From Patescibacteria group bacterium (GTDB lineage: Bacteria; Patescibacteriota; Patescibacteriia; SG8-24), in assembly GCA_028714475.1 (NCBI GenBank), contig JAQTNC010000011.1:5804-44857 (forward strand): DNA of 39,054 nt, read 5' to 3'. This document shows, in pieces, positions 2,488 through 38,122 of this stretch; position 1 is the stretch's first letter; the number at the start of each line of letters is the position of its first letter. Under the pieces are notes generated by a model, which was not told the origin of the DNA, did no database searches, and saw only the letters and a program-made list of their open reading frames with translations. Made by a program: the position numbers and the translations under genes.

Positions 2488-2509
2488 TCAGTGGTCAGTG
2501 AACAGTGGG
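2488..2509 (+). repeat. CAGTGGT-type heptamer array
   Basis: Three 7-base units (CAGTGGT, CAGTGAA, CAGTGGG) lie in tandem in the spacer after yraN. The reverse complement of this word is the CCACTGA array that flanks the spacer at 36867-36995, so the two sites hold the same family in opposite orientations. Confidence 0.7.
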
Positions 2510-2553
2510 CTGTGTTTCTTGCTTTTTTGCCAGCCGCCAGGAATACCCGGGGG

Positions 2554-2581
2554 TTGACTTTCCGCCCGGAAACTGTACTGT
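2554..2581 (+). promoter_or_regulatory. Promoter for the 2619 gene
   Basis: TTGACT (2554-2559) and TACTGT (2576-2581) are 16 bp apart. Transcription would start near 2588, about 30 bases before the ATG at 2619, which has its own AGGAG ribosome-binding site. Confidence 0.5.
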
Positions 2582-2618
2582 AAGGGTTAGACGTTGCTCA
2601 TTCCGATAGGAGTCAGAG

Positions 2619-3176: not shown

Positions 3177-3230
3177 GCATGCCGCCTTGCCCCCTTGCCA
3201 AGCCCGTCGAAATCGGGTACACTCCGATAC

Positions 3231-3266
3231 GGAGACTGATTCTGGATAGGATCAGTCTCCTTTGTA
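3231..3266 (+). terminator. Intrinsic terminator after the 2619 gene
   Basis: GGAGACTGAT (3231-3240) pairs perfectly with ATCAGTCTCC (3251-3260) and is followed by TTTGT. The 10-bp stem has a 10-base loop. Confidence 0.8.
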
Positions 3267-3294
3267 TCTATACCTCAAAAACAGCCAATTAACG

Positions 3295-3330
3295 GCAACT
3301 ACAAACAACCAACTACGAACTACAAACTAG
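3295..3330 (+). repeat. AACTACA-type heptamer array upstream of nusA
   Basis: Five near-identical 7-base words (variants of AACTACA/AACAACC/AACTACG) run up to 2 bases before the nusA start codon. They occupy the position of the ribosome-binding site without supplying one. The same family is found inside the coding sequence at 7278-7309. Confidence 0.75.
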
Positions 3331-3332
3331 AT

Positions 3333-20648: not shown

Positions 20649-20671
20649 GTGTATAGAGTCCATCTATACAC
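20649..20671 (+). promoter_or_regulatory. Perfect inverted repeat at the operon start (operator candidate)
   Basis: GTGTATAGA (20649-20657), spacer GTCCA and TCTATACAC (20663-20671) form a perfect 9+9 inverted repeat. It lies directly after the -10 and ends one base before the ATG at 20673. That is the position of a repressor operator. If transcription starts at its left edge, the RNA would instead form a hairpin abutting the start codon. Confidence 0.65.
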
Positions 20672-20672
20672 C

Positions 20673-21407
20673 ATGGCTTCTTCTCAGGCGCCAAACCCGC
20701 ACCAGAAGTTGACGCTGGCGATTGTTGCATTTTTCGCCACGTTGACTTTGATTTTCGCGTTTTTTAGCGTCAAGAACTCCATCGCCATCCCATTTTACCG
20801 GCAGGCGGGCGGGAAGGTCTTCAAGACGACGGAGCAACTGGAGAAGGAAAAGACCGAAGCGCTCAAGGCCAAGGATACGGATAGCGACACTTTGACTGAC
20901 TACGACGAGCTGTACCTGTACCGCACGAGCCCCTATTTGGCGGACTCGGATTCGGACGGGATTTCTGACGCCGAGGAGATCGCCCGCAACACCGACCCGA
21001 ACTGTCCGGAGGGGCAGACGTGCCGCGCGGCCAGGACCACGCCGGCCAGCGGTTCGGCTGAAGCGCCCGCGACGGGCGGCACCCAAACCAGTGGCGGCAC
21101 CGCCGCGCCCAGCCAGGACCAGACAGCCCAAGCCGCGCAAGCCGTGGCGGAAACGTTCGGCGACATCCGGTACATGACGGCTGACCAGGCGAAAACGAAG
21201 ATTGCCAGCATGTCCGAGCATGAGTTGCGTGATTTTTTCCTGAAACTCGGCCTGTCCAAGGAGACCATTGACCAGGCTGACGAACCGACCTTGCGTTCGG
21301 TCCTGACGCAGACGATTGAGCAGATGATCAGTGACGCCAACGCCGCGGCTGCCACCGACGCTTCGTCCGCTCAAGCGCCAGCCGTCTCGCCGACGCCTAA
21401 CGAGTGA
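20673..21407 (+). CDS. Membrane-anchored TSP3-repeat protein
   Basis: This 244-residue protein has one transmembrane helix (about residues 16-34) and is probably oriented with its C-terminal part outside. Thrombospondin type 3-like calcium repeats follow: DTDSDTLTDYDELYLYRTSP and DSDSDGISDAEEIARNTDP, with the D-x-D-x-D-G Ca-binding spacing. A Thr/Gly/Ala/Gln-rich linker leads to a helical C-terminal domain (MTADQAKTKIASMSEHELRD). Such Ca-binding repeats stiffen surface proteins. The start at 20673 was chosen since the promoter lies upstream; an ATG at 20649 lies inside the inverted repeat. It is the first gene of the secretion operon, 4 bases before the giant protein. Confidence 0.8.
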   Translation: MASSQAPNPHQKLTLAIVAFFATLTLIFAFFSVKNSIAIPFYRQAGGKVFKTTEQLEKEKTEALKAKDTDSDTLTDYDELYLYRTSPYLADSDSDGISDAEEIARNTDPNCPEGQTCRAARTTPASGSAEAPATGGTQTSGGTAAPSQDQTAQAAQAVAETFGDIRYMTADQAKTKIASMSEHELRDFFLKLGLSKETIDQADEPTLRSVLTQTIEQMISDANAAAATDASSAQAPAVSPTPNE

Positions 21408-21411
21408 CCAC

Positions 21412-24400
21412 ATGAAAACGCCACGCAAAATTGCCGGGTCCCTGCGCAAGGCCCTCACGGTCGGCCTGTTCGGCGTTTTCGCGTTCATGCTGACGTTTGG
21501 CACCCTGCTTGGCGCTCCGCGCCCGGTACACGCCCAGGCGGTCGTCAGCGACCCCGGACAAACCGCCGTCCACACTTACAACCAGGTGAAGAGCACCATC
21601 ACCGATCTTTTGGTGCAGGGCACGGTCGTCGCCCTCGCCAACTCCGTCAATTACTTTGCCTCCCAACTCGCTTACGAGCTGGCCGTCATGATCGTGGACG
21701 GCTGTCCCGGCCAGAAATCCTGTTGGAACGCCGATTCGCTCACCGGCGCCCTGGCCAACGCCGGCCTTGGGGCCATGGGTGAGTTCGTCGGCTCGATGAA
21801 CGAGGCCGGCTTCAAGGAGCTGGGCTTGGATCTTTGTGCGCCTTCCGCGGATTTCGGCCTGCGCATCCAGCTCGGCATGCTGCAGGAAAAGAAACCGCCG
21901 CCGCCGAAATGCGACATCAACCAGGTGGCCAAGAACTGGAAAGATGCCGTCGGCTCGATGACGCCGGATCAGATCGCCAAAACGGCATGGCAGGGATTCC
22001 AGCCGGGCACGGCGCCGGTCTCCATGGCCTTCAGCATCAACTCCAAGCTCAAGTGGGACATCATCAGCGGGGCGGAATCAAAGGCCCAATACGAGCGCCT
22101 GCTCGCTTACGCTGGCGGCGGCGGCTTCGGCGACATCAAGGATCCGGTTACCGGCAAGGTCCTGACCCCGGCTGGCGTGGTCTTCGAGGAATACAAGCAG
22201 GGCATGGCCAAGCGCAACAACGCCGACATGGCAAACCAGATGTACGTCGCCGGACAGATCGCCCGCGGCGCGGTTTGGGGCGCGATTCTCTCAAACGCCA
22301 CCTCGACTTTCGCGCAGACGCTCATCGCCCGCCTCTGGAACAAGGTCGTCAAAGGCCTGTTGTCGCCCGAGGAAGCCAACCGCATGGCGCAGGACGTCGT
22401 GTTGAGCGCGGAAGGCGTCGTGCATCCCGGCGAAGAGGAAGTCCGAGGCGCGATCGAGTCGCGTTTCGACGCGCCCAAGCTCCAGGAAGTCGGGGAGATC
22501 GATCCGCTGGCGCTGTTCTCCATCTGCCCGGACGACAACCGAACCGTGGACAACTGCATCGTGGATTCGATGCTCGCGAACGCGGTCCGTCTGGCCGGAG
22601 CCAAGCCGGTGACCGTGCGCGATGCCATCGAGAAGAACATGTTGCACGGCGAATGGCCGCTGGTTTCCTCGCTGGACGTGGCCCGGAACACCTCCAAGGA
22701 CTGCTACACGTCGGCTTATTGCGAGAGCAATCTCAAGAAACTGCGCGCGGCCCGCATCTTGCCGGCGGGCTGGGAAATCGCCGCCCACAAGAGCCCGGCC
22801 GCCCGGCCTTGGAAACTGAAGGACGTCGTGGCCGGCTTCAACGACTGCGACGACAGCGGCAACTGGAGCGCGGCGCACCCATATTGTCATCTGATCGATC
22901 CTGACTGGGTGCTCAAGCAGCCGCCGACCAAATGCATGGCACAGGGATACACGAGCACCTTGATTTCCTCGTCCTCCTCGACCCGCGCCCAGGTCTGCGT
23001 GGACAAGGTGTCCTGCCTGGCCGAGGACGATTTCGGGAACTGCCTCGGCGGATACGGCTACTGCACCCGCGAACGCAACGTCTGGCGCATGAACGGCGAC
23101 ATCTGCCCCGCCGAATATAACTCCTGCCGCGTTTACACCTCCCGATCCGGCGGACAGATCGCGCTTCTGGCCAACACCGTTGATCACGGTGCCTGCACGG
23201 CGAGCAACGTCGGTTGTGGCGCTTACGCCACGCGGCAGAACGCCTTCGAGTGTCGGCTCACGGCCAACCAGGGCGGCGCTGACGGCAGCGGCACCTGTTC
23301 GCTCGCCGGCGGGTGCGCCTGCAAAATCCAGCAGTCCTGCAGCGTGGCGACCGGCTTCCGCCGTTGCCTGCTTACGAACGGCGAAAGCTGCACCCTGCTT
23401 CAGGAATTCTGCGTGGCCGGCCCGTGCTCCTGCAGTCGGGATTATTCCTGTCTCGTCGGCAAGGACCAGAAGACCTGTCGGGTCGTGAGCGGCGACGCGA
23501 GCAACAAGGGTGACGACTGGCTCGTGACGCCCGCACTTTACCTAAATGCCCAAGCGAAAAGCTGTCCGGCGAGCGACGGCGGCTGTACGGCGCTTTACCG
23601 TATGGAGATCGGCCAATCGCTCAACCTCATCCGCAACGGCGGTTTCGAGGAATTGGAAGACGCCGACGGCGACGGCTCGACCGATCACGCCAAGTATTGG
23701 GCGCCTTACGGCAACGTTCCGGCTGGCGGTCGCGGCTCCATATCGACTGACGGGACCAGATCCACGAGCGGGAGCAATGCCGCCCGCGCCGGCGCGTATT
23801 CCAACTCGGCCGCGAGCAATGTCTGCAACGGTTCCTGTGACAGCGAGGCGGGCTGCCCCTGCCGCGACGGCGACTATTCCTGCCGCTTGGCCAAGGGAGA
23901 GACACGGTGCCGCACTTCCAACATGCTGTATCAGGATGGCATTTCGATTCGGAGCGGGGCGACTTACACCTTATCGTTGAAGGCGAGAGCCGAGACCGAT
24001 GTCACGTCATCGACCGTCAGCATCCAGTTCAGGAACAAGCGCGGCGAGACGGCTGTCGCTTTGGACATTTCCGCCTCGCCGGCCAATTATTGCGTGGGCC
24101 AGGGCGGTTCCGCCATGGTCGCGGACGTGGTGCCGGCCGAGGACCGAAAATCCGGATATGTTTACTGCACCTTTTCGGCGGTCGGCGATGTCGGCAGCGC
24201 CAGGTTGGTCATCGCCGACTCCGGCGACACCTATTTCGATGAAATAATGCTGGAGGAAGGCGGCGGAACGAACGGCTATCACGACGGCTATTCCGCCGGC
24301 GTCGAGACGGTTTACGCCAAGGTGCCGCCGCCGGAACTGGGTTGCACCGGTGGCGCGAACGACCGCGCGGAATGCCAGGATTACGCCGCCGTCTGCCGCG

Positions 24401-27400
24401 ACAACGAGGTCGGCTGCGATTCCTATTCGCCCCTGACCGGCGAACCGTCCATTCCGGCCGTCGCCGGTCCGCAGGATGCCTGTCCGGCCGAATGTTCGGG
24501 CTACGACATCTTCAAGCAGTCAGCCACGGATTTTGATCAGGAGAAATTCCCGACCTATTTCATCCCGTCCACGGCCCGCCAATGCACCGCCAGCGAGGTC
24601 GGCTGCAGCCAGTTCACCAACGTCAAGACCGAAGCCGTGGAATATTACGCCCGCCTGCGCCTCTGCCAGGCGCCGACGGCCGCCGACAACCAGGTTTTCT
24701 ACAGTTGGGAAGGGTCGGACACCACCGGTTACCAGCTGAAGGTCTGGAACCTCAAGCGGACGGCCGGCAAGGTCACCGACAAGTCAGCCGACGGCGATTT
24801 GGCGGACGACATCTGCGCCAACCGCGACCATGACTCCTGCGATTCCGCGAAACCCATCGGCGCCGCCGAAAGCAGCGCCACCAATGACGGGACGCGCGCC
24901 GGCACTGCGCCCTGCACGAGGGTCGTCTATGACGCTTCCGGCAACATGGTCTGCGATGACGCGGCTTCGGCGGAATTCGGCATTTGCAGCCGCAAGGACA
25001 TCGCGGCCGGCGATTTCGATTGTCGCGAACTGTACGACGAGTTCGGCAACCGCCATTTCCGTCAGCTCTCCCGCACCGTGCTCGCCACCGATACCTGCTT
25101 CCGCTTCCGCATCACCGCTTCCACCGAATCGGACTGCCTGTTCTCGAACGGCCAGTGGGATTCGGCCAAGCAGGAATGCCATTATGATGCCTCGGCCACC
25201 GAAAGTCTGACCTGCAGTTCGGCATCCAACGGCTGCCGCGCCTATCGCGGCAACGCGGCCACCAATGTCCGCACCCTCTTCACGGACACTTTCGAATCAG
25301 GCTTGGGTGATTGGGTGGATGGCAACAATGCCGTTGCCGGGGTCAGCCAATCGTCGGAGTCCGTGAACGTCGGCGGCCATTCCTTGAAAGTGGTGCCTGA
25401 CAACACCGCCGACCGTTACGTTCAGGCCATCGTCAGTCCGGAGCGGACTTACACGGTGGAGTTTTGGGCCAAGGGTTCGGGCGGTCTCGAAGTCAAATTC
25501 GACCAAGGCGGGTCAGCCAGCTGCGTCCTGCCCGACGCGTGCGGCCAGGATGAGGGCTGTTTCTGCAACGACGGAAAAATCGCCTGCTGGGTGCTCAAGG
25601 ACAGCAACAGCTGTGCGCCTTCCGGCACCGGCGACCTGACCTGCACGAGTTCGATGTGCAATAAGGCCGGGGGCTGTCCATGCTACGAGCCGACCAAGAA
25701 CATTTATCGTTGCCTGATTCGCCAAAACAACAGTTCCTGCACCGTCCCCGATCCTTTCAGTGCGCCTGACAATCGTTATGGAGGCGGTTTGCCGCAAATA
25801 AACCTGACGGCTGAATGGAGGCATTACAGCCTGGGTCCGGTCTCGAGCGGCTTGGCGGCCTGGACGAACTATCCGGTGCGCCTGCAGTTCCGGCAGCTCG
25901 GCGGATCGGGCGACAGCTACTTGGACAACATCACCCTTAAGGAAATCCAGGACAGCATTTACGTCGTGCGCGATTCCTGGAAGACGCCAACGAGCTGTGA
26001 TCAGACACTCGACGGCACGCCGTCGCCGCTCGAGATGGTGGGCTGTCGCGCTTACGTCAATTCGGCGGCCGAAACGAAGTACCTGCGTTCGTTCAGCCAG
26101 CTTTGCCGCGAGTCCTCGGTCGGCTGTCGCGCTTACGCCAACCTGCAGGGAACGACGGATTATCCGTTTGACCGTTCCTACAACGCCGTCTGCCGCCTGC
26201 CGGACGTCTGTTCGGCCTCGTCCGGTTCGATTTTCACCGGCGCCAACTGCACCTGCAGTTATGACTTCCCGGCCAGCTCCGCCGAATCCACCAAACCCAC
26301 CCTTTATGACGTCTGTCGCGTGGCCATCGGCGAAAAGGAATGCCGTTTCAACCTTGACGGCCAGGATAGCTACCAGTCGCGCGCCGAACATCCGGACATC
26401 GCCTACGTGCCGGCGGACGAGCGGGTCTATCTGGTCGTGAATCAGGACAACGTGTGCCCGGCCACTTCCGCTGGCTGCCGCGAGCTCGGCAAGTCCGATT
26501 TGGCTTACGATGGGCAGTGTTCTTACGCCACTTGCGCCAACAACACCGACCTCGTTTGCGGACGCGACGCCGATTGCGGCGCGGGCGGCTGGTGCACCAA
26601 ACGCGCGACCCAGTGCGTCGGCGGACCGAGGAGTGGCGACGTCTGCAACACGAACGCCTATTGCCAGCCGGCGAACGGCGGCTATTGTCTCGAGGTCGGC
26701 ACGCAGAAGCAGTGCAACAGCACGACCGGCCTCTGCGACTGCCGCGACAGCCAGTCCGGCGCGTTCCGCTGCAAAGTCGAGAAAGGCCAGTCGTCCTGCA
26801 CTTACGCCGCCCGCGACGGCTCGCCTTCGTCGTGGGGGAAGGTGACGCTGCTCGACAACCCGGATCAATATGCCGAACAGCTTTGCCTTGAGCCGGAAAT
26901 CGGCTGCGAGCAGTTCCAGACCAAGGCTGGCTCCGCCTACTTCAAGGATCCGGGCAACAAGAAATGCGTCTATAAAGAGAGGGTGACCTACCAGGGCAAG
27001 GAGCGTTCCGGCTGGTTCCGCCAGACCGCGAGCGGCCTCCTGCCGTGCTATGGCGAACTGCTGAAGGACGGGGACTTCTACGCGATGTACAAGAACGACG
27101 ACAGCCACTGTGCCCTGTCCCAGCTCTGCCCGAACGATGCCGGATGTTACTGCTACCCGCCGGGCATGGACGCGACCAACGCGGCGCCGGTCTGCAAGGT
27201 CCTGCGCGGTGACCGGACCTGCGGCTACGAGGGTTGGGCCGGCGTGTGCGAGGCCCGCTACGATTCCTGCGAGGAATTCGTTGATCCCGTGGCTTCCTCG
27301 TCCAACCATCCGGCGGGCCAACCGTATTACTACATCGTCAACAGCAAGCTGGACATGACCTCCTGCAACGGCCAAGCCAACCTCAAGAACGGCTGCGTCG

Positions 27401-30400
27401 TCTTCAAGAAGACGAGCGACACGCAGAATCTCTTCTCGGCTTCGGCCAGTTACCAGAAGAGCATAGCCGAATCCGGCGGCTCGGCCGTGAGCGTCACGCC
27501 GGTGAACTGCAACGTGCCCAACCGCAGTCCGCTCTGCGAGAAGCGGTGCTTCGTCTATAAGGATGGCCTGTGCGCCAGCAGTTTCAGCAACATCCATGCC
27601 GACAAGCCATGCGCGCAGGACAGCGACTGTTCGGTCGCCGGCGAGCGCTGCCTGGGCGCCGAGTCCTATTCGAACGGCTGTCTGGTTGACGGCGACTGCA
27701 AAGGTGCGTCCGAGAAATGTCTCGCTTACGACGAGACGACCGTCGCCGACTGGTTCGATGCCAAGGACACCTACGGCTTGCCGGGCGTGCATCGCACGAA
27801 CAACGACTTCACCCGCAACGACACCAACCTCGTCATCAAGGTCCGGCCGGATCGCGAGTGCGCCGAATGGCTGGCCTGCCGCGAGGCCGAAACCGTCTGG
27901 GATGAACAGCAGAACAAATGGACGTCTTCCTGCACGGACTTCGGCGTCTGTCAGGACAACGTCAAGGCGGGCGAGTCACTCGAGTGCACCAAGTGGGTCG
28001 AGCCGCCGCGAACCCGGCTGACGGAGACGGTCTACGCGAGCCGCGACGTCACGTGGAAGGGCTATGAGTTCGCCGGCTTCAGCGTGGTCGGCAGTTACCA
28101 TCCGCAGCTGCTCACGCCGGTCGCCATCGGCGACGCGGTCTGCGTCGGCGGCACCGACGACGGCAAGGCCTGCGACAACGGCTGTCCGGCCGGCGTCTGT
28201 TCGACGTCATCGCTCGCTAACCAGCGGTACGGCGTTGCCTTCGGCAAATGCAGCAACAACGCGAACAAGCTCTGCCGCGACGACGGCGACTGTCCCGACG
28301 GCAGCTGTGATCTCGGCTGCGATCCGGATGATGTTAACGCCTGCTTGACCGACGGCGTGGGTAAGGGCACGTGCCTCAATCGCCACTGCTACTACGCCTT
28401 CAGCGGCGGCCCGCTTGAGGTCGCCAACCAGTCGACCAAGGCGTCCTGTCGTGCCTATCCGGTCGGTGATGCGCCGTACAATTTCACCGTGCTTGACGGC
28501 GGCAACAACGGTTACGACGGCTACGGCAACGCCATGAACAGGACCTCCGCCTTTGCCGGCGCCAACGTCTGCGTCAAGGGCAATGACTGCGACTGTATCT
28601 TCACCCGTTACGGCTATGGCCGCGGCGGGTCGATAGCGCGTTTTCATGCAACCGATGCCGGCAGCGGCACCGAAGCGAATCAGATCTGGTCAGGCATCTG
28701 TTCAGGAGGGGAGAATGATGCCGCTCCGTGCAGCCTGAACAGCGACTGTCCGCAAGGCATGTGCAGCAAGATCACCAGCCGGTCCACGGCCATCGGCTGG
28801 CCGGGCTTCTGTCTCGACCGCGACGAGTCGCTCGCCGTGAACAACGACCCCAAGGATTTCGCCTGCGTCAACTGGCTGCCGGTCCAGGCGCTCTCCGGCA
28901 TGCCGGACCAGTATAACCAGTACGCCGAAGCGGGATACCAGAACGACAAGGACCTGCTGTACTGTCAGGATGCCAACGGCTACCGTTCCGTTGGCAACGG
29001 TTCCGAATACACACGGACGGCCGTGTCGCAAGCGACCATCTTCGATTCGGATTGCGACACCAACACTCAACTTTTCTCCTCGGATTTTTATCACACCGAC
29101 GCTGACTGTTACGACGACAACGGCGGTGGCGGTCGCTGGTACCGGAAATACACCGATACGGCAACCTACAAGGATCAGTTGGCCGGCATGAAGGTGTACG
29201 TGGAGCATGGCGACGGAGGCTATACTGACAGCAGTTTCACCTTTTACCTGGTTCCCTTCAAGAACACGGACGGAACGCTTAATGACAATCGTTGGGTCAA
29301 CGTCATTGATGCCGGCAAGGGCAACATTGGCAACTTCCCGACTGGAAATCAGGGGGTGGTCCAGAGTGGGGAGTGTTACACCAGGCTAACCACCTTCTCC
29401 AAATGCTCGGATAACCACGGCTGCATCGGCATTGAGGCGGATTTTGACCAGACCACCAGCGCCCTCGATCACTTCATGATCGCGATGTGCACCAACGAAG
29501 AGGAGGGTGCCAGTCACCGCGGCCGCATGACGGTTACGTTCTATTATCGTGAGACCTGCAACGAAATCGCTTGGGTCAGTCGTATCAGCGGCCAGGGCAA
29601 TGTCGCTTGGACCGACCGGTTGTGGAAGAGCGGCCAGTACTCGGCCTCCGGCTACGCCTATGACTGGACTTCGGAATTGGGTAACGACGGGGCCAACACG
29701 GACATGACCCCGTTCGGCATGATCAGCTTGGCACCGGAAGTCGGACCTAACGATAGCGCGGTCAAGTTCTCGGCGGGCAGCGGCAACATCCCTCCGGCCC
29801 TGTGGAATCGCCTGCCGCCGATCTATTCGTCAGAAGGCGGTTCAGGTTACACCTTCTTCTACCCGAATTCCGACGGGTCGGAGTTGGTGCAGGATTGGGG
29901 CACCGCCATCATGGGTCGGCCGTACGCATGCTCCGGCAACTGCGGCGGTGCAACGCCATCGGCTTGGCAGAACAAGGGCAGCAACGTCTCAAAGGCGGGC
30001 GCCGATAACTTGAGTCAGCTGTTCGCCGTGGCGTGGCGCATATACGGCATGAACCGCGATGCTCGGCAGTACGATGCCCAAGCGGCAGCGCTCGGCTACG
30101 CCGCCTGGGACAAGCGCGAGACTTTCGCCACGAACGGCAACCGGCCGGTTATCGTTTCCGTGGACACGGCCCAATGCACCGGCGACAACTCGTGTGTCGA
30201 GGGCGGCGAGGGCCTCACCGTGAATGGGCTCATGGGCGGCGACGTCGAGTCCAATGTCGGCGCGGGTCGCCTGCGCGTCAACCTCAAGTACTACGCCTAC
30301 GCCGACAAGGACCACCTGCCGATTCTCCGCAAGGCCGTGGATTATGGCGACGGTTCGCCGACCCGCTACCTGGAGGGCCAATACAAGAACCACCGCGGCG

Positions 30401-30909
30401 TGGTGAAGAACGGCGACAAGTTCGATCCGATCTGCAGTTCCGACGCGACGGAGTGGGGCAAACAGCCGGACGCCTGCGACGGCCGCTACTTTGAGGAAAT
30501 GAAAACCTACATCTGCAACCGGCAATTGCTCGCGAGCCTGTCGGCATGCTCCAACCCCGGCTCGCCGGACGAGACCTATCCGTGTCAGGAATCAGGCGCT
30601 TGCGTCTTCCGCCCGCGCGTCCAGGTCATGGACAACTGGGGCTACTGCAACGGCGTTTGCGCCGGCGGCACCGGCGGCCTGAACGACGCTTGCGTGAACT
30701 ACAATCTGACCGCGCCGATTTGGGACCCCGTGAACGGCTTCTTCGGTTCCGGCGCGGGGAACAACCGGGCCGGCAAGGTGATGGACGAGTGCCTGTCGAG
30801 CCAAACCAATTTCAGGGACGTGGATGAGTTCAACAAGGGCAACCAGTACAAGGCCATCCGTCCGTGGACCTGGGCCAATTCACGCATCAAGGTTTATCCG
30901 GCGGAATAA
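21412..30909 (+). CDS. Giant secreted Cys-rich modular protein (3165 aa)
   Basis: A Sec signal peptide (basic residues 2-13, hydrophobic core 15-34, then VHA cleaved before Gln42) leads to a helical N-terminal domain of about 500 residues. A region with roughly 170 cysteines (hand count) follows. Three module types recur: (a) eight copies of C...GC-x-C...C-x(2-4)-x-G-x(3)-C, between residues about 628 and 1937; (b) about a dozen short VGCRAY-type pairs (C-x(4-8)-GC-x-x-(Y/F)); (c) at least four D-x-D-C/GG-x-C segments such as SDCPQGMC. Two beta-sandwich-like domains (NLIRNGGFEELE, about 738-945; LFTDTFESGLGDW, about 1289-1510) are each interrupted by type-a modules. A PKD-like segment with VDYGDGSPT lies near 2977. 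No C-terminal anchor is visible. In the operon it is most likely a surface fibre or adhesin. The function is inference. Confidence 0.85.
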   Translation: MKTPRKIAGSLRKALTVGLFGVFAFMLTFGTLLGAPRPVHAQAVVSDPGQTAVHTYNQVKSTITDLLVQGTVVALANSVNYFASQLAYELAVMIVDGCPGQKSCWNADSLTGALANAGLGAMGEFVGSMNEAGFKELGLDLCAPSADFGLRIQLGMLQEKKPPPPKCDINQVAKNWKDAVGSMTPDQIAKTAWQGFQPGTAPVSMAFSINSKLKWDIISGAESKAQYERLLAYAGGGGFGDIKDPVTGKVLTPAGVVFEEYKQGMAKRNNADMANQMYVAGQIARGAVWGAILSNATSTFAQTLIARLWNKVVKGLLSPEEANRMAQDVVLSAEGVVHPGEEEVRGAIESRFDAPKLQEVGEIDPLALFSICPDDNRTVDNCIVDSMLANAVRLAGAKPVTVRDAIEKNMLHGEWPLVSSLDVARNTSKDCYTSAYCESNLKKLRAARILPAGWEIAAHKSPAARPWKLKDVVAGFNDCDDSGNWSAAHPYCHLIDPDWVLKQPPTKCMAQGYTSTLISSSSSTRAQVCVDKVSCLAEDDFGNCLGGYGYCTRERNVWRMNGDICPAEYNSCRVYTSRSGGQIALLANTVDHGACTASNVGCGAYATRQNAFECRLTANQGGADGSGTCSLAGGCACKIQQSCSVATGFRRCLLTNGESCTLLQEFCVAGPCSCSRDYSCLVGKDQKTCRVVSGDASNKGDDWLVTPALYLNAQAKSCPASDGGCTALYRMEIGQSLNLIRNGGFEELEDADGDGSTDHAKYWAPYGNVPAGGRGSISTDGTRSTSGSNAARAGAYSNSAASNVCNGSCDSEAGCPCRDGDYSCRLAKGETRCRTSNMLYQDGISIRSGATYTLSLKARAETDVTSSTVSIQFRNKRGETAVALDISASPANYCVGQGGSAMVADVVPAEDRKSGYVYCTFSAVGDVGSARLVIADSGDTYFDEIMLEEGGGTNGYHDGYSAGVETVYAKVPPPELGCTGGANDRAECQDYAAVCRDNEVGCDSYSPLTGEPSIPAVAGPQDACPAECSGYDIFKQSATDFDQEKFPTYFIPSTARQCTASEVGCSQFTNVKTEAVEYYARLRLCQAPTAADNQVFYSWEGSDTTGYQLKVWNLKRTAGKVTDKSADGDLADDICANRDHDSCDSAKPIGAAESSATNDGTRAGTAPCTRVVYDASGNMVCDDAASAEFGICSRKDIAAGDFDCRELYDEFGNRHFRQLSRTVLATDTCFRFRITASTESDCLFSNGQWDSAKQECHYDASATESLTCSSASNGCRAYRGNAATNVRTLFTDTFESGLGDWVDGNNAVAGVSQSSESVNVGGHSLKVVPDNTADRYVQAIVSPERTYTVEFWAKGSGGLEVKFDQGGSASCVLPDACGQDEGCFCNDGKIACWVLKDSNSCAPSGTGDLTCTSSMCNKAGGCPCYEPTKNIYRCLIRQNNSSCTVPDPFSAPDNRYGGGLPQINLTAEWRHYSLGPVSSGLAAWTNYPVRLQFRQLGGSGDSYLDNITLKEIQDSIYVVRDSWKTPTSCDQTLDGTPSPLEMVGCRAYVNSAAETKYLRSFSQLCRESSVGCRAYANLQGTTDYPFDRSYNAVCRLPDVCSASSGSIFTGANCTCSYDFPASSAESTKPTLYDVCRVAIGEKECRFNLDGQDSYQSRAEHPDIAYVPADERVYLVVNQDNVCPATSAGCRELGKSDLAYDGQCSYATCANNTDLVCGRDADCGAGGWCTKRATQCVGGPRSGDVCNTNAYCQPANGGYCLEVGTQKQCNSTTGLCDCRDSQSGAFRCKVEKGQSSCTYAARDGSPSSWGKVTLLDNPDQYAEQLCLEPEIGCEQFQTKAGSAYFKDPGNKKCVYKERVTYQGKERSGWFRQTASGLLPCYGELLKDGDFYAMYKNDDSHCALSQLCPNDAGCYCYPPGMDATNAAPVCKVLRGDRTCGYEGWAGVCEARYDSCEEFVDPVASSSNHPAGQPYYYIVNSKLDMTSCNGQANLKNGCVVFKKTSDTQNLFSASASYQKSIAESGGSAVSVTPVNCNVPNRSPLCEKRCFVYKDGLCASSFSNIHADKPCAQDSDCSVAGERCLGAESYSNGCLVDGDCKGASEKCLAYDETTVADWFDAKDTYGLPGVHRTNNDFTRNDTNLVIKVRPDRECAEWLACREAETVWDEQQNKWTSSCTDFGVCQDNVKAGESLECTKWVEPPRTRLTETVYASRDVTWKGYEFAGFSVVGSYHPQLLTPVAIGDAVCVGGTDDGKACDNGCPAGVCSTSSLANQRYGVAFGKCSNNANKLCRDDGDCPDGSCDLGCDPDDVNACLTDGVGKGTCLNRHCYYAFSGGPLEVANQSTKASCRAYPVGDAPYNFTVLDGGNNGYDGYGNAMNRTSAFAGANVCVKGNDCDCIFTRYGYGRGGSIARFHATDAGSGTEANQIWSGICSGGENDAAPCSLNSDCPQGMCSKITSRSTAIGWPGFCLDRDESLAVNNDPKDFACVNWLPVQALSGMPDQYNQYAEAGYQNDKDLLYCQDANGYRSVGNGSEYTRTAVSQATIFDSDCDTNTQLFSSDFYHTDADCYDDNGGGGRWYRKYTDTATYKDQLAGMKVYVEHGDGGYTDSSFTFYLVPFKNTDGTLNDNRWVNVIDAGKGNIGNFPTGNQGVVQSGECYTRLTTFSKCSDNHGCIGIEADFDQTTSALDHFMIAMCTNEEEGASHRGRMTVTFYYRETCNEIAWVSRISGQGNVAWTDRLWKSGQYSASGYAYDWTSELGNDGANTDMTPFGMISLAPEVGPNDSAVKFSAGSGNIPPALWNRLPPIYSSEGGSGYTFFYPNSDGSELVQDWGTAIMGRPYACSGNCGGATPSAWQNKGSNVSKAGADNLSQLFAVAWRIYGMNRDARQYDAQAAALGYAAWDKRETFATNGNRPVIVSVDTAQCTGDNSCVEGGEGLTVNGLMGGDVESNVGAGRLRVNLKYYAYADKDHLPILRKAVDYGDGSPTRYLEGQYKNHRGVVKNGDKFDPICSSDATEWGKQPDACDGRYFEEMKTYICNRQLLASLSACSNPGSPDETYPCQESGACVFRPRVQVMDNWGYCNGVCAGGTGGLNDACVNYNLTAPIWDPVNGFFGSGAGNNRAGKVMDECLSSQTNFRDVDEFNKGNQYKAIRPWTWANSRIKVYPAE

Positions 30910-30931: not shown

Positions 30932-31003
30932 GGCCCTCGACTTCGCTCGGGCAAGAAAATAATCAAATTGGAAAGACGTTCTGCCCCGAGCCTGTCGAGG
31001 GGC
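30932..31003 (+). repeat. Palindromic repeat pair between the giant gene and virB6
   Basis: GCCCTCGACTTCGCTCGGGC (30934-30953) and the copy of GTTCTGCCCCGAGCC...GGGGC (30978-31003) lie in the only spacer over 100 bases within the first half of the operon. The second copy with its two upstream bases is identical to 7056-7083. The palindromes could form RNA hairpins and set the ratio of the giant protein to VirB6. Confidence 0.8.
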
Positions 31004-31012
31004 GAAAAGAAC

Positions 31013-34000
31013 ATGAAAAACCTTCCCGCCAAACTGACCGCTCTCAAGAACCGACTCGTCGCCGGCTGGCTTGGTGTGTCGCGGCAGCGCGGTTTCAAGA
31101 TCAGCGCGATCGTCTTGACCGTAGCCGCCGCCGTCCTCCTCGCCGCCCACCCGACGTTCGCGGCCGGGGATTTCATCAAGGACGCCACCATCACCATCAT
31201 CGGCTGGGTCGCCCAGGTCGTCGTGACCTTCTTCGGCTGGATCATCATCACCATCATCCCCAGCCTCATCGCCATCGCCAGCTACAACAATTTTGTGACC
31301 GCGCCGGCGGTCGGCGTCGGCTGGGTGCTCGTGCGCGACATCTGCAACATGTTTTTCGTGCTGATCCTGCTGGTGCTGGCTTTCGGCACGATTCTCGGCG
31401 CGGATTCCTACAGCATCAAGGGCGGGAACCTGACGAGGCTCCTCATCATGGCGATCCTCATCAATTTCTCGCGGACCATCTGCGGCCTGCTCATTGACCT
31501 CTCGCAGGTCATCACCCTCACTTTCGTGAGCGGCTTCAAGGAGGCGGCGGCCGGCAATTTCATCAGCGCCCTCAAGATTGACCAGGTCCTGCAGAGCGCC
31601 GCCAGCCAGTCAGAAGCGGCGGATTTCATCGCCGTCGTCACCTCGCTCATCCTGGCCATGGTCATGACCGGCATCGCGCTCTTCGTCATCATCATGATCA
31701 CGGTGGCGTTCGTCGTGCGCATTGTCTATCTTTGGCTGCTGGTCGTCCTGTCGCCGGCCGCCTTTTTTCTGCGCGCGGTGCCCGGCGGCGCGGGCAAGTT
31801 TTCCGACTGGTGGAACCGCTTCGTGAGTCAGCTCGTCGGCGGGCCGGTGTTGGCCTTCTTCCTGTGGCTCTCCTTGGTTTCCGTCCAGCAGGGCGACATC
31901 GCCGGCGGCCTGACCGTCCAAGGCACTGGTGAATCGTTCGGTTCCGTCGTTTCCGCGACCTTCGACAGCCAAGCACTCGCCCAATACATCATCGCGGTCG
32001 GCCTCCTGCTGACCGGACTTATGATTGCCAAGCAGGTCGGCGGCGAGTCCATGGCCGTCGGGAGTCAGGCCGCCACCTACGTCAAGGGCCAGGCCCAGCG
32101 GGCCGCGTCGTGGGCCGGACGCAAGGGTTGGGAGGCGACCAAGGCCACCGGCGGCGTTCTCGCGGACAACATCAAGATTCGTGGCGGCAAAGAGGTTTTC
32201 AACGAGAAGACCGGGCAATGGGAAAAGGAAAGGGTGTCGCTGCGGGCTTACGCCAAGACCGGGTACGAGAAGGGGAAGAAAGCCGTCGTCACCTCCGGCG
32301 TCGGCCGCGCCGTTGGTTTGGACAAGGAACACACGGAGCGCAGGCGGACCGAGGAACAGATCAAGGCTTACGAGGGCCGCGGCATGACCGTCCAGGCGAA
32401 CCAGCTCAAAAAGGAGGCTTACGGGAAAGAGGTGGAACATCTCAAGAAGATGGGCATCACGAGGGAATCCTTGTATCAGGAATACGAGAGAGAAAGCGCC
32501 GCCAATCCCGGTTCCATCAGGCAAAAGGCACTCACCATCATGATGGCCGGCGAAGGCCGGTTCAACGGGCAATACGGCAAGATGAAGGATCTGTCGGGCA
32601 ATGACTTGACCATGCTCGCGATGATGAAGGCGGCGTCCAAGGACAAGGGCGACGAGTTGGCCGAAATCGACCAGACGCAAAGCGACGAAGGCGTCCAGAA
32701 GCAGATTGCCGACATGCTCATCGGCAGCGACAAATCCAAGCGCGCTCGACTGATGACCCAGTTTGCCAACGGCGTGGCGGTGGGCGCCGACAACAAGCCC
32801 AAGAACGAGTTGGCCACCAAGGGCCTCGCGGCCATCGACGGCTCCATGTTCCGGGCGCAAGACAAACAGCTTCAGGAGCGCCTGTTGGGCGCTTTGGAGA
32901 TAGCGGTCAAAACCGGCCAGATGACCCAGGCCGAAGCCGATAAGCGCGCCAGTGGCTGGGGCACAACGCGGCTCACGGGTGCCAAGGCCCAGGAGGCTGT
33001 GGACAAGATGGATCGAGGCCGGTTGACGGACATGGGTCTTCTGCTCGGTTCCGGCCGGCTCAACCGCGCCTTCACGAGTTACGATGAGGCGACCGCCACC
33101 TTCAAGGACGACGAGGAACGGGACCTTTACGAGAGGTTCGTCGCCGCCAAGGAGGGCAACGGCCGGATGATCATCCAGAATACCAAGGCCGATGCCTTGG
33201 TGGAGAACGGCGGGGTTAATGACCTGGCCATCGGCGCTTTCAGCAACATTAAGGTCGGCGGCACGGACAAGGACGGCAAGGCATTGCCTAACGAGATACT
33301 CGAAATGGTCAAAGGCAAGAATGGCGCCGTGAGCCCCGATAACGTCTTCGCCACGCTTCAGGCCGCGCGGGGCTTGGCCAACGCAGGTGACACGGAACTG
33401 CAGGGCGTCGTCGACAAGCGTTGGGATGTCATCGAGAAGCGCTTCACTGATTTGCTTGACGCGGACATCGAGCGGGAAGTGGAAGAATATCGGAAGAAGT
33501 TCCCCAACGCGACAGACGATGATTTGCAGATTGTGCGTGACACCCATGTAACGAGCGGCGCGTACCAGAATCTCTTTACCGCAGAACGGCAGAAAGCCGA
33601 TCAGCAGAAGCAGGTAGTCCAACAGCGCGTCTTCGCTGCCCGCCAGAACGCCCGTGACATCGTTGATTCGCAGGATAACGGAACGCTCGGCATGGTGACC
33701 AAGGGCCTTACCTACAAGGCAAAAGCTTTCCGGGAAGCCAAGAGCGTTGGCGGCACGGTTTTGAAGGGGGCGGCTCTGACTTACGCCGCGCCTGCCGTCG
33801 CCGCCGCAGCCGTCGCGGCTCCGGTGACGGCGGCCGTGGTGGCCGGCGCGGCACTTATCGGCAAGTCGCTCAAGGACAAGGTGACGAAGGAGATGACTAG
33901 GCAAGCCGATGTCGCCGCCAAAGAGGCCGAGAAGGTCAAAAAGGCTGGCGGTACTCCAGAGCCGCCCAAGACCGGACTTAGTGCCGTCGCGTCGGCAGTC

Positions 34001-34084
34001 GGCGCCGTGGTCGCTCCAGGCGGCGCTGGTCGAACAATATCCAGGACAGGACGGCGGGCTCGTCGGTTTGTCTCCAAGATTTAA
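31013..34084 (+). CDS. VirB6/TrbL-like channel protein
   Basis: This 1023-residue protein belongs to the VirB6/TrbL-like inner-membrane channel family of type IV secretion. A first hydrophobic segment with FAAGD (about 28-47) may be a signal or helix. Further helices lie near residues 54-80, 98-122, 134-160, 200-250 (long hydrophobic pair), 270-285 and 315-332. The remaining 690 residues are soluble, charged and helical, apart from a low-complexity Ala/Val segment near 910-940 that may be another hairpin. It ends in a basic tail (TGRRARRFVSKI). VirB6 proteins form the inner-membrane core of the channel. The large cytoplasmic domain is far beyond the usual VirB6 length. ATG 31013 was chosen since an upstream ATG at 30968 would translate the palindrome. 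Confidence 0.85.
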   Translation: MKNLPAKLTALKNRLVAGWLGVSRQRGFKISAIVLTVAAAVLLAAHPTFAAGDFIKDATITIIGWVAQVVVTFFGWIIITIIPSLIAIASYNNFVTAPAVGVGWVLVRDICNMFFVLILLVLAFGTILGADSYSIKGGNLTRLLIMAILINFSRTICGLLIDLSQVITLTFVSGFKEAAAGNFISALKIDQVLQSAASQSEAADFIAVVTSLILAMVMTGIALFVIIMITVAFVVRIVYLWLLVVLSPAAFFLRAVPGGAGKFSDWWNRFVSQLVGGPVLAFFLWLSLVSVQQGDIAGGLTVQGTGESFGSVVSATFDSQALAQYIIAVGLLLTGLMIAKQVGGESMAVGSQAATYVKGQAQRAASWAGRKGWEATKATGGVLADNIKIRGGKEVFNEKTGQWEKERVSLRAYAKTGYEKGKKAVVTSGVGRAVGLDKEHTERRRTEEQIKAYEGRGMTVQANQLKKEAYGKEVEHLKKMGITRESLYQEYERESAANPGSIRQKALTIMMAGEGRFNGQYGKMKDLSGNDLTMLAMMKAASKDKGDELAEIDQTQSDEGVQKQIADMLIGSDKSKRARLMTQFANGVAVGADNKPKNELATKGLAAIDGSMFRAQDKQLQERLLGALEIAVKTGQMTQAEADKRASGWGTTRLTGAKAQEAVDKMDRGRLTDMGLLLGSGRLNRAFTSYDEATATFKDDEERDLYERFVAAKEGNGRMIIQNTKADALVENGGVNDLAIGAFSNIKVGGTDKDGKALPNEILEMVKGKNGAVSPDNVFATLQAARGLANAGDTELQGVVDKRWDVIEKRFTDLLDADIEREVEEYRKKFPNATDDDLQIVRDTHVTSGAYQNLFTAERQKADQQKQVVQQRVFAARQNARDIVDSQDNGTLGMVTKGLTYKAKAFREAKSVGGTVLKGAALTYAAPAVAAAAVAAPVTAAVVAGAALIGKSLKDKVTKEMTRQADVAAKEAEKVKKAGGTPEPPKTGLSAVASAVGAVVAPGGAGRTISRTGRRARRFVSKI

Positions 34085-34094: not shown

Positions 34095-35390
34095 ATGGCT
34101 GAAGACAGCAACCAACCAAGCGTTTCCCCGACAGAACCGACCGTGCCGGTTGCTTCTGGTCAGCCGGCAGCAGTCGATTCGATGACTGATGAGGAAGAAC
34201 TATCGGTTTTGGAGCTGCTTGAGACGGTGCCACCGGCCGTCAAGGAATATTTGCTCGACCAGAAAACGACGAACCGCCGGACCGAGATCTACAAGGCCTT
34301 CAAGCTGACCGCCGAGGAGTCGGACATCGCCATTTACGTGGAGATGGCCGTGTTCTTCGGCATGGTGCCGCTGGCCGAATTCCCGGATACGCTGTATAGA
34401 AGCCTGCCGTGGCCGGATAGTGAGGAAGACAAGGCGGCGGAATTGGCCGCGGAAATCATGGGCCAGATGATGTTGCCGGCGGATCCCTATTTGGGCGACG
34501 TCAGCAAGGTCATCACCGGCCTTGGCTTCGATCCGGCGGAATATCCTGCTATCGAAAAAATCAAACTGGCTCGGCAGACTTACGCCCAGGCGGCGAGCGA
34601 CACCGTCGGCAAGGCAGCCATCGAAAATCTTGACCACGAGGCCAGACATCGGCTGGAAGGCGTGGTTGAATCCCTCCTGCGCGGCGTTCGGGTTCCGTCC
34701 GGGGCCATCGAAGCCATGACCAAGCCGCGCAAGATCGGCGGCGCGGGCCTTGATGACGCCAACGCCCAAGTGCTGGTCACTTTGGCCCAGGAAATCGTGG
34801 GCGGAACGGTGTTGGTTGACGAGGAGCCAAACGTCGAGGAAACCGCGTCGGCCCCGTCGGCCACGCCCCTGCCGCCGGACGCCGAGAAGATTCGCCAGAT
34901 TTACGCGGGGACGGAATCGGAACGCGGCCTCTTGGAACAGCGACGCCAGACGCTTCTGGCTGACGGCCAAAGCGACGCGCTGGCCATGCGGCGCAAGCTG
35001 AAAGAGGTTCTCCAACCGACGGACATCGTTGAACCGGAGATGTGGTTGGTCACGGCCGCCCTGTTCATGGTGGCCGAAAGCGGCGATCTCCTGGCCGCCG
35101 TCACCGAGGACAAGTGGTTTCAGGACATGATTCTGAAGGCACTCCACGAACAGGAACGGGGGACAGACGCGGAGCTATTCAAGGAAAAGCCGGAAGATCC
35201 GCGGTTCATGAACCTTTTCCTGCAGTTGGTGTTGCGGCGTTATGCCGGTCACTCGATGGCTGACTCCGCCCGTTTCGGCTTGCGCGTCATCAACCTCCTC
35301 AAGAAACAAGGCCACCCTGAATACGGCTCGCTCACGGCTTTCGACATGCGCGACATGCGTTTCCGCTGGCTGAAGCCGGAGATAATCTAA
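34095..35390 (+). CDS. Secretion-operon protein of unknown function (soluble, 431 aa)
   Basis: This 431-residue acidic protein has no signal peptide or helix long enough for a membrane segment. It has a Pro/Ser/Thr-rich N-terminal tail (about 30 residues), then a helical body. Segments such as LLETVPPAVKEYLLDQKTTN resemble VirB4-neighbouring, CPR-specific proteins only by context. A linker near residues 240-260 (EETASAPSATPLPPD) separates two helical halves. I do not recognise a family. It is 10 bases after virB6 and 5 bases before the next gene, so it is cotranscribed. It is probably a cytoplasmic component or chaperone of the system. Confidence 0.75.
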   Translation: MAEDSNQPSVSPTEPTVPVASGQPAAVDSMTDEEELSVLELLETVPPAVKEYLLDQKTTNRRTEIYKAFKLTAEESDIAIYVEMAVFFGMVPLAEFPDTLYRSLPWPDSEEDKAAELAAEIMGQMMLPADPYLGDVSKVITGLGFDPAEYPAIEKIKLARQTYAQAASDTVGKAAIENLDHEARHRLEGVVESLLRGVRVPSGAIEAMTKPRKIGGAGLDDANAQVLVTLAQEIVGGTVLVDEEPNVEETASAPSATPLPPDAEKIRQIYAGTESERGLLEQRRQTLLADGQSDALAMRRKLKEVLQPTDIVEPEMWLVTAALFMVAESGDLLAAVTEDKWFQDMILKALHEQERGTDAELFKEKPEDPRFMNLFLQLVLRRYAGHSMADSARFGLRVINLLKKQGHPEYGSLTAFDMRDMRFRWLKPEII

Positions 35391-35395: not shown

Positions 35396-36796
35396 ATGGC
35401 GGACCAGTCCTGGCTTACGGATCTGCTGGATGAGGATATCCCGGTCATTGACCGGGCTGGTCAGACGCGCCAACTCAAGGATTTGGCCGCCGCGCCTTCC
35501 GCCCCAATCGCCAAACAGGCCGAACCGGCCGCGGCTCCGCCACCTCCGGCACCGGTTGTAGAAAAGCCGCCAGTTGAAGAAAAGACGCCGCCGGCACCGC
35601 CGGCCTCACCAGCGGTCAAGCCGCCGACCGTCATCAAGCCAGAATCCGAAGCCGAGAGCGATGATGCCACCTTGTTGGCCGGCGTGACCGCGGCGGTCGG
35701 TTCGGTTTTGGGCGATGAGGCCAGCCAGCGTCATTTTGTCACGGCGGCGCGGCTGTATTTTCGCGACCTGCGCGACGCCCTCGAAACCAAGTCCAAGTTC
35801 ACCATGCCCGTCGCGAGCGGCGGTTTGGGATTGTCCGACGAACAGGCGGAAAAAGTGATGGCGTTTTTGGTGGCCAAGGAGGGTGCCAAGCGAACCGGCG
35901 AGGAAACCAAGTCTAAGTTGGATAAACAGCGTTTTGTCGCTGAACAGACGGAAAAAATCGACCGACAGATGGTTGAGGAAGAGACCAAGGAACAGCAGAA
36001 GTTGGACGAGATGTTCGGTCGCCTGACGGCCAAAGTGACGGTCACGGCCAAGCCGACCAAACACGCCCCAGCCGCGGTTGTTGAGCCAGCCCCGCCGCGC
36101 TTGTCCTTACCGCCCCGCGTCATTCAGGTGGTGGCGGTCGAAAAGCCGGCGCCCAAGGCGGCGGAAAAAAAGGAAATGCCGCCCTCTCCAGCCCCAGCCG
36201 AAACGAAAAAGCCGGTTGCGCCCGCCCCCACGCCTTCCATTCGTCAGGAAGCCTCTGCCCCCGTCCTCCAACCAGTCATCCCCGCGGCAACGCCAGCCGC
36301 CAAGCCCATCCTTTATAAGGAAGAGGCGGCGGTGGCCCCGAAGCCGGCTCCAGCCGTGCCGCCTCCTCCGCCGACCGTCGCCCCGCCGCCACCGGTGGCC
36401 AAACCGACGCCGCTCATGTCCCCAACTTCGGCCGCCAAGAGCGTTATGACCGACGTCAAGGCGGCGCCGAAGCTCGTCGGCCCGATTGAGGAACTGCGCT
36501 CGCTCACGGTCAAGGATTTCCGCCGGCTTTCCCGCGATCCGCACGAAGCGACGCTCAAGATCCGCGACAAGATTGACCTGCTCGAGGACCAGTCCTTTGA
36601 GGCCCGCACGGCCGGCGTCAAGGCTTGGCAGGAAAGCGGCATCAACAAGCTGTACCTGGAGATTCTGCGGCAGAGCCTTGAAGGGAGACCGATTTCGGAG
36701 CTTATGGCCGAGCGCGAAGCCAAGGGCGAACTGATCCTGGAAAAGGCCGAATTTGATGCCATCATGGAGCTGAATCGGAAACTGCGGTTTGGCTAG
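35396..36796 (+). CDS. Secretion-operon protein with Pro/Ala-rich linkers and a coiled coil
   Basis: This 466-residue soluble protein is modular. The N-terminal motif WLTDLLDEDIPVIDRAGQTR is followed by a Pro/Ala linker (about 40-85) and a helical domain (about 90-150). Next come a coiled coil with EQTEKIDRQMVEEETKEQQK (about 170-205), a long Pro/Ala/Lys-rich stretch (about 220-350) and a C-terminal helical domain (GPIEELRSLTVKDFRRLSRD onwards). The N- and C-terminal motifs may be docking segments, with the Pro-rich parts acting as spacers. Nothing links it to a known family. It lies in the operon directly after the 34095 gene, with a 5-base gap. Confidence 0.75.
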   Translation: MADQSWLTDLLDEDIPVIDRAGQTRQLKDLAAAPSAPIAKQAEPAAAPPPPAPVVEKPPVEEKTPPAPPASPAVKPPTVIKPESEAESDDATLLAGVTAAVGSVLGDEASQRHFVTAARLYFRDLRDALETKSKFTMPVASGGLGLSDEQAEKVMAFLVAKEGAKRTGEETKSKLDKQRFVAEQTEKIDRQMVEEETKEQQKLDEMFGRLTAKVTVTAKPTKHAPAAVVEPAPPRLSLPPRVIQVVAVEKPAPKAAEKKEMPPSPAPAETKKPVAPAPTPSIRQEASAPVLQPVIPAATPAAKPILYKEEAAVAPKPAPAVPPPPPTVAPPPPVAKPTPLMSPTSAAKSVMTDVKAAPKLVGPIEELRSLTVKDFRRLSRDPHEATLKIRDKIDLLEDQSFEARTAGVKAWQESGINKLYLEILRQSLEGRPISELMAEREAKGELILEKAEFDAIMELNRKLRFG

Positions 36797-36995: not shown

Positions 36996-37421
36996 ATGCG
37001 CTACGTTGTCCCCCAATTCATTGACGTCGAGGACAAGATTATCGGGCCAATCACGACCCGACAGTTTCTCATCCTGCTGGCGACTTCCTTCATCGGCTTT
37101 ATCACCTATAAGCTGGTGGATTTCACCCTTTTTCTCGTCCTGGGAATAATGGAGCTCATCATCGGCGGGGTCTTGGCGTTTTTCCGCGTCAACGGTCAGC
37201 CTTTCCACTTCTTCATGCTGAACGTCGTTCAGACGCTCCGCCGCCCCCAGTTGCGCCTGTGGGACAAGCAATACCTTGACGGCGAATTACGGGAAATCAT
37301 GAAAGCGCCACCGCCGCCGCCACCGCCGAAGCGCATTCGCAAGGAATCGCTGGCCGGCGCCAAGCTCGGTGAGCTGTCGCTCATCGTCAATACGGGCGGC
37401 GTCTATAATCCGGAGGAGTGA
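36996..37421 (+). CDS. PrgI family protein (VirB3-like)
   Basis: This 141-residue protein has PrgI/VirB3-like architecture: a short N-terminal IDVEDKIIGPITTRQFLIL segment, then two adjacent helices (about 24-43 and 47-70), and a soluble C-terminal part. PrgI-type proteins are the VirB3-like partners of VirB4 in minimal, Gram-positive-style type IV systems. The tail carries a run of seven prolines flanked by Lys and Arg, longer than in typical members. The gene starts flush with the heptamer repeat and has no ribosome-binding site. It ends 3 bases before the next gene, whose GGAGGAG ribosome-binding site lies in its last codons. Confidence 0.88.
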   Translation: MRYVVPQFIDVEDKIIGPITTRQFLILLATSFIGFITYKLVDFTLFLVLGIMELIIGGVLAFFRVNGQPFHFFMLNVVQTLRRPQLRLWDKQYLDGELREIMKAPPPPPPPKRIRKESLAGAKLGELSLIVNTGGVYNPEE

Positions 37422-37424: not shown

Positions 37425-38120
37425 ATGCAATCAAAGCAATTGGCCGGCTCGAAGCCCGGCCCAGCCACCCAACGCTATCTGGACATCGCCGAAGTCAAGG
37501 AGGACGTCGTGGTCCTGAAGGACGGCACCTTGCGCGCCGTGCTGTTGGCGTCGAGCATCAATTTCGCCCTGAAGTCCGAGGACGAACAGCAGGCCATCAT
37601 CTCCCAATACATCCAGTTCCTGAATTCGCTGGAATACCCCCTGCAGATAGTCATCCAGTCGCGGCGGCTGAACATCGACAAGTACCTGGAGCGGCTCAAG
37701 GAATCGGAGCGCAACCAGCAGAACGAGCTGCTGCGCGTGCAGATCGCGGATTACCGCGCTTTCGTGGCGGAGCTGGTGGACCTCGGTTCCATCATGCAGA
37801 AGTATTTTTTCGTCGTGGTGCCGTACAACCCGCTGTCTAACAAGCGCAAGAACTTCTTCAGCCGGCTTTCGGAAGCCTTCTCGCCGGCCGTTTCGGTCCG
37901 GCTGGCCGAGCAGCGGTTCCAGCAGCGGCGCAACGACCTGCTGACGCGCGTTGACCACCTCAAGGCCGCCCTGTCGAGCATGGGCATCAAGTCGGCGCAA
38001 CTCGATACGCAGGGGCTGATTGAGCTCTATTACCGCGTTTACAACCCGGAAACCTACGATTCGGAAAAAATCGTCGATACGGACAAGCTGCGCGTTACTG
38101 ATAACGTGACCATCGTTTGA
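37425..38120 (+). CDS. Detached VirB4/TraC N-terminal-domain protein
   Basis: This 231-residue protein matches the N-terminal domain region of VirB4/TraC-type ATPases, with no Walker motifs. VLKDGTLRAVLLASSINFAL is followed by SEDEQQAIISQYIQFLNSLE and PLQIVIQSRRLNIDKYLERL, then the KYFFVVVPYNPL strand and a C-terminal coil. In canonical VirB4 this domain is fused to the ATPase. Here it is a separate gene followed within 2 bases by a VirB4 with its own N-terminal portion. GGAGGAG at 37409-37417 is a good ribosome-binding site, in contrast to the rest of the operon. It is likely a structural subunit at the base of the machine. Confidence 0.8.
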   Translation: MQSKQLAGSKPGPATQRYLDIAEVKEDVVVLKDGTLRAVLLASSINFALKSEDEQQAIISQYIQFLNSLEYPLQIVIQSRRLNIDKYLERLKESERNQQNELLRVQIADYRAFVAELVDLGSIMQKYFFVVVPYNPLSNKRKNFFSRLSEAFSPAVSVRLAEQRFQQRRNDLLTRVDHLKAALSSMGIKSAQLDTQGLIELYYRVYNPETYDSEKIVDTDKLRVTDNVTIV

Positions 38121-38122
38121 TT

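Follow-up and report, generated by a model that had tools for sequence, protein, structure and literature searches.

The 39,054-nucleotide stretch of DNA analysed here (the window) includes a gene for a giant, Cys-rich secreted protein that, judged by its sequence, looks like a component of a T4SS locus to which some 2,500 extracellular residues, rich in disulfides, have been added. Homologues are found across class ABY1, in which the giant is a core and usually single-copy protein whose whole architecture is conserved class-wide. A preliminary description had drawn attention to the Cys modules of this protein; the main point beyond it is that the gene lies beside those of a T4SS and that the architecture of the protein is kept throughout the class. 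The features of the window are listed in Table 1.

Table 1. Features of the giant and its neighbour genes in the window.
Feature	Coordinates	Strand	Residues	Basis or remarks
Single-TM protein with TSP3-like calcium repeat	20649..21407	+		directly upstream of the giant
Giant secreted Cys-rich protein	21412..30909	+		3165 aa, 172 Cys (5.4%)
Signal peptide of the giant	21412..21540	+		cleavage near ..PRPVHA-QA, residue ~43
N-terminal helical domain of the giant	21541..22446	+		HMM matches, alignment, phylum search
ABY1 core domain	22444..23271	+	345-620	many invariant Cys
Type-a Cys module 1	23290..23376	+	627-655	pattern, HMM
Type-a Cys module 2	23377..23481	+	656-690	pattern, HMM
CBM4/9-like beta-sandwich 1	23617..24336	+		Foldseek; split by module 3
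Type-a Cys module 3	23821..23916	+	804-835	within sandwich 1
Class-conserved block with VGCRAY-type pairs	24364..24771	+	985-1120	
CBM4/9-like beta-sandwich 2	25267..25971	+		PF02018; split by modules 4 and 5
Type-a Cys module 4	25522..25617	+	1371-1402	within sandwich 2
Type-a Cys module 5	25639..25746	+	1410-1445	within sandwich 2
Type-a Cys module 6	26191..26349	+	1594-1646	divergent, long loops
Type-a Cys module 7	26713..26802	+	1768-1797	pattern, family HMM
Type-a Cys module 8	27109..27228	+	1900-1939	pattern, family HMM
C-terminal beta-rich region	27814..30906	+		ends in Ig/PKD-resembling beta domain
VirB6/TrbL-like polytopic membrane protein	30968..34084	+		start probably 31013
Cytoplasmic protein, conserved in locus	34095..35390	+		no Pfam match
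Pro/Ala-rich cytoplasmic protein, conserved in locus	35396..36796	+		no Pfam match
PrgI (VirB3-type) T4SS protein	36996..37421	+		PF12666, E 3.1e-8
TrsD-like (VirB4 N-terminal-type) protein	37425..38120	+		PF11130 and NF041427, below cut-offs
VirB4-type ATPase	38117..39054	+		curated-model match below cut-off; contig end cuts gene

The gene order of the locus (rsmA, the TSP3 protein, the giant, virB6-like, two cytoplasmic genes, prgI, trsD, and virB4) is conserved and recurs over dozens of families. The remainder of the window's virB4 lies on another contig of the assembly, C41. At every one of the 49 loci that extend far enough upstream, the giant is immediately preceded by a homologue of the TSP3 protein. 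This protein, which is also found in the T4SS loci of other classes, is probably another undescribed component of the locus. Comparison of the VirB6-like gene product with MPF_T VirB6 using hhalign gave a probability of 76% (E 2.3e-5), its topology is polytopic, and its homologue in L185 has a weak match to PF04610. Among 43 giant loci having >5 kb downstream, the virB6-like gene was inside the fetched stretch at 36, less than 500 bp away in 21 of them, and was not found nearby at seven; in two of these seven, G033 and G073, virB4 is located on another contig. The T4SS loci of different classes share the cytoplasmic pair, which consists of separate genes in the window and apparently of one longer gene in many relatives. 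L037, L044, L048, and L079 have extra Cys-rich ORFs between the giant and virB6, that of L079 coding for 1376 amino acids with 38 Cys. In ABY1 a secreted or single-TM protein of ~190 amino acids encoded after virB4 (L206:11192-11755, L207:15567-16145, L208:9206-9769) is a candidate VirB8-like protein; an NCBIfam scan of the gene in this position for VirB8 gave no match. A functional tie between the giant and the T4SS locus seems quite likely to us; co-location with T4SS genes is by itself no proof of physical association.

In other classes of Patescibacteria, whose loci have the same gene order, this slot of the T4SS locus is taken by a small secreted protein of 280-560 amino acids, usually directly before virB6. 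An HMM of the N-terminal domain, built from ABY1 giants alone, matched the slot proteins of L185, L187, L188, and L190, the E-values in these four other-class genomes being 2.3e-15, 5e-7, 8e-7, and 6e-5. The slot proteins and the N-terminal domain of the giant have in common, in an alignment made without L190, the signal-peptide end PKPAxA and the motifs LCxP and PxC. When three slot proteins were added to the HMM, a search of the phylum detected further small ORFs with E-values down to 1e-18, and those of G176 and G150 are in the expected place, on the strand of virB4 and about 5-7 kb upstream of it. The link to other classes is clear in several genomes only. The structure model of the domain is of low to moderate confidence (pLDDT about 34-77), and its sequence gave chance-level matches only against the PDB. 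It is this homology to small proteins of the same slot that leads us to regard the giant as an apparent T4SS-locus component to which an extension has been added.

The motif PKPAxA marks the end of the signal peptide in an alignment of the giant's relatives. The hydropathy peak of the protein covers residues 15-33, and no second TM-like segment was found beyond the signal peptide over the rest of the ORF. The ABY1 core domain is the best-predicted portion of the structure model (pLDDT 83-97 over most of it). The C-terminal model has a pTM of 0.70, and the domain at its end (~30151-30693) was predicted with a pLDDT of ~85-95; Foldseek found no fold match in the PDB for the C-terminal model at E<=0.001. 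The sequence DYGDG...DNWG hinted at a PKD domain, yet there was no Pfam match in eight members, and the domain is therefore labelled only as Ig/PKD-resembling. CBM_4_9 was the sole match in a Pfam scan of the giant. The number of Cys is even in 38 of 50 complete giants (binomial P 1.5e-4, relatedness ignored), which supports the presence of disulfides, and the giant is probably held together by many of them.

An HMM of about residues 340-625 was used as the search profile for the giant, which was found in 256 of 287 genomes of class ABY1, including 232 of 256 near-complete ones; an HMM search of 380 genomes sampled across the phylum detected it nowhere outside this class. Named matches belong to Uhrbacteria, Magasanikbacteria, Falkowbacteria, Kuenenbacteria, Komeilibacteria, Kerfeldbacteria, and Buchananbacteria, groups that we take to be GTDB class ABY1. 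Nearly all ABY1 genomes have one conserved giant locus, usually single-copy, and most of the listed genomes among the ~10% of the class with no detected giant are multi-contig assemblies. Fifty complete giant ORFs code for 1635-3923 amino acids (median about 2995), mostly for about 2,100-3,900 with one shorter ORF, and Cys makes up about 4%. In L102, which has the shortest, another Cys-rich ORF comes next and the gene may be split; a 26,141-amino-acid "open frame" of G092 was rejected as an artefact from masked N. VGCRAY-type pairs are present in all 49 complete giants of >2,000 amino acids (4-12 each, against 0.56 expected), and the HMMs found sandwich 2 in 52 of 53 giants and sandwich 1 in 35 of 53. 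There are 2-8 type-a modules per giant within the window's family and usually 0, sporadically 1-4, elsewhere. The class-wide pairs and sandwich 2 can therefore be considered a scaffold, of which the family-level type-a modules are a later decoration.

The preliminary description had reported eight type-a modules, about a dozen VGCRAY-type pairs, and several DC-x-x-G-x-C units in the window's giant, and all three counts stood up to comparison with composition shuffles. The type-a pattern occurs 8 times, against a mean of 0.2 and a maximum of 2 in 500 shuffles; there are 11-12 VGCRAY-type pairs, against 0.96 expected, and 4 strict DC-x-x-G-x-C units, against 0.3 expected. The type-a module consists of ~30 residues and usually includes 6 Cys. 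The profile-HMM comparison that had been proposed indicates that the type-a copies are homologous to one another: in leave-one-out searches seven of the eight scored 11.6-25.9 bits, above every match in 200 shuffled giants, and an HMM trained on relatives found all eight. The copy missed by the leave-one-out HMM, module 6, scored 26.6 bits with the family-wide HMM. Over its own genome the module HMM gave seven matches, all inside the giant ORF.

Sandwich 2 matches PF02018 (CBM_4_9) with an E-value of 1.2e-10 and 42.3 bits, the curated cut-off being 25.9, and the best Foldseek matches of sandwich 1 are CBM16/CBM4 (probability 1.00, TM-score on target up to 0.70). Both are like the sandwiches of CBM families 4/9/16 (PF02018) in fold and sequence; unlike these, they are split by Cys modules, stand in a non-enzymatic context, and have a putative binding function only. 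When HMMs of the sandwiches were built with the inserts left out, each matched the window protein in two pieces (736-809/802-975 for sandwich 1 and 1286-1378/1448-1520 for sandwich 2) that break exactly at the type-a modules. These are the places where the inserts had originally been described, at 23824 (residue 805) and at 25519-25742 (residues 1370-1444), the latter holding two modules in tandem in the window. To compare the inserts, full-length proteins of the window's family (10 members) were aligned with seven members of other families. The sandwich 1 module is present as one copy in 8 of the 10 family members, being absent from L042 and L043 and from all seven members of other families. 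One module is found in sandwich 2 of L035-L038 and of L041, whereas L040, L042-L044, and others have none there; L039 has a degenerate-looking Cys insert with no HMM score, and the tandem second copy (module 4) occurs, among the genomes aligned, in the window only. In the relatives without modules the sandwiches are continuous at the same sites ("empty sites"), and the type-a modules are therefore insertions. In the AlphaFold model the first inserted module forms its own small beta-hairpin (model 791-802, pLDDT ~71-75), located between strands of the sandwich, outside the sandwich proper and not continuous with them. A module-like Cys insert at another loop of sandwich 2 in L113 suggests an independent insertion.

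The insert sites are kept across the genera of the window's family, which forms one group in a tree of block 345-620 (93/86, unstarred), and the inner branches of this tree are too weak to tell module gain from loss. The alignments and HMMs support the view that modules were acquired or lost whole in the course of evolution. The signal peptide, the split HMMs, and the empty sites together bear out the description of a secreted protein with modules inserted in two CBM-like beta-sandwiches, and make it a clear example of small disulfide modules set into beta-sandwiches of a bacterium, the sites being empty in relatives.

We propose that the ancestral part was a small Sec-secreted protein at the T4SS slot, represented by the N-terminal helical domain of the giant, and that this domain probably docks on the membrane channel VirB6/PrgI/VirB4. 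To this part ABY1 would have added ~2,500 extracellular residues including the VGCRAY-type scaffold, one or two CBM4/9-like sandwiches, and the C-terminal beta domain. The extension could be a rigid disulfide-braced stalk or adhesin projecting from the T4SS that would bind host-cell glycans, so that the host is held against the secretion channel, and the giant would fill the role of a mating-pair adhesin. The CBM-like fold points to putative glycan binding, of which a fold alone is no proof. The type-a modules in loops of the scaffold probably tune the binding surface or the stiffness, mainly in the window's family. TraN, the adhesin of the F plasmid, is Cys-rich; together with PrgB of Gram-positive bacteria it may offer an analogy in the way of working, as a T4SS-encoded surface protein that stabilises cell contact, while the giant had no match to F-type TraN/PrgB families up to E 10 (Pfam) or E 1 (NCBIfam). 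Taken as a whole, the chain from a core component of the T4SS locus, docked and carrying a disulfide-braced stalk or adhesin, to glycan binding and host contact is on balance probable, if only just. A further step, in which the small T4SS-locus protein has grown in ABY1 into a giant disulfide-braced extracellular spike, which takes the place of the pilus or adhesin in host contact and possibly extends the channel, is offered tentatively and seems rather doubtful.

The giant could instead be an ordinary secreted surface adhesin that lies beside the T4SS genes by chance and is independent of them. Large Cys-rich extracellular proteins with a signal peptide, for which a role in attachment was suggested, have been described in Peribacteria (PMC4736985), and large FhaB-type exoproteins in an ABY1 genus (PMC11809585); virB6 is also not adjacent at some giant loci. 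The Peribacteria proteins are likened to the giant by their description (large, signal peptide, Cys-rich), but they are varied products of a 14-gene cluster with strain variation whereas the giant is one T4SS-linked protein, and the exoproteins of both reports appear to differ from it. Since typical adhesins are patchy and variable while the giant is near-universal and mostly single-copy, and since its N-terminal domain is homologous to the small secreted proteins of the same slot in other classes, we regard a chance neighbour as unlikely. Less probable still is a reading in which the N-terminal domain belongs with the minor pilins of VirB5/TrbJ type, the giant being a tenfold enlarged pilus-tip adhesin. 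The helical, secreted nature of the domain and its slot just before virB6, where virB5 is found in R388 and related plasmids, would agree with this, but hhalign against MPF_T VirB5 gave a probability of 18%, due mainly to the signal peptide and the first helix (0.6% for the control against VirB6). PF13605 (DUF4141/TrbJ) matched weakly in 3 of 53 giants (best E 4.9e-5), and it also matched below the cut-off in 6 of 14 control genomes, for which reason this link was rejected.

To the preliminary description the inserts looked like a cassette system by which a surface protein is varied; in such a system modules would be reshuffled to change antigenicity or specificity. The copy number of 2-8 inside the family, the insertion in domain loops, the extra tandem copy of the window, and the different loop used in L113 are features that such a system could produce. 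This idea is not supported: the giant has no DNA-level repeats longer than ~31 nt, the module HMM found no second locus or silent copies in the genome, the sites are kept among genera, and nearly all ABY1 genomes have one conserved locus. These results indicate slow evolutionary gain and loss with no sign of programmed variation, making a cassette system highly improbable. That the giant is a secreted substrate (effector) of the T4SS and not a structural part is the least credible reading; the gene is inside the T4SS locus and no catalytic domain is known, but the Sec signal peptide, the size, and the disulfide-type Cys content argue against it, as do the Pfam and NCBIfam scans, in which neither an enzyme nor a toxin domain came up at the C-terminal end. 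The docked, disulfide-braced stalk or adhesin is the reading that we prefer.

A 2025 survey of Patescibacteria T4SSs (PMC12102498) describes, in the part available, VirB4, TrsD, PrgI, VirB6, and VirB2-like pilins, and states that an adhesin of the PrgB type was not found and that components of the outer core were hardly seen at all. The MPF_FATA-related systems covered there are likewise chromosomal and include PrgI, TrsD, VirB4, and a VirB6-like protein; that portion of the survey includes neither a giant protein nor a conserved secreted slot before virB6. No published description of the giant was found in the open-licence literature, which does not prove its absence elsewhere. The T4SS is essential in the one Patescibacterium given genome-wide mutagenesis, the role of Patescibacteria T4SSs has been described as entirely unknown, and a T4SS adhesin has yet to be found in them. 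The bacteria of class ABY1 are tiny and probably host-dependent. Host recognition has a direct candidate in a class-wide, mostly single-copy protein of ~3,000 residues in genomes of ~1 Mb, whose location in the T4SS locus and sugar-binding-like domains make the question testable. From the features of its sequence, the giant is a strong candidate for making the contact with the host cell; if the spike reading is true, the spike would serve the secretion system by which these ultrasmall bacteria exploit their hosts.
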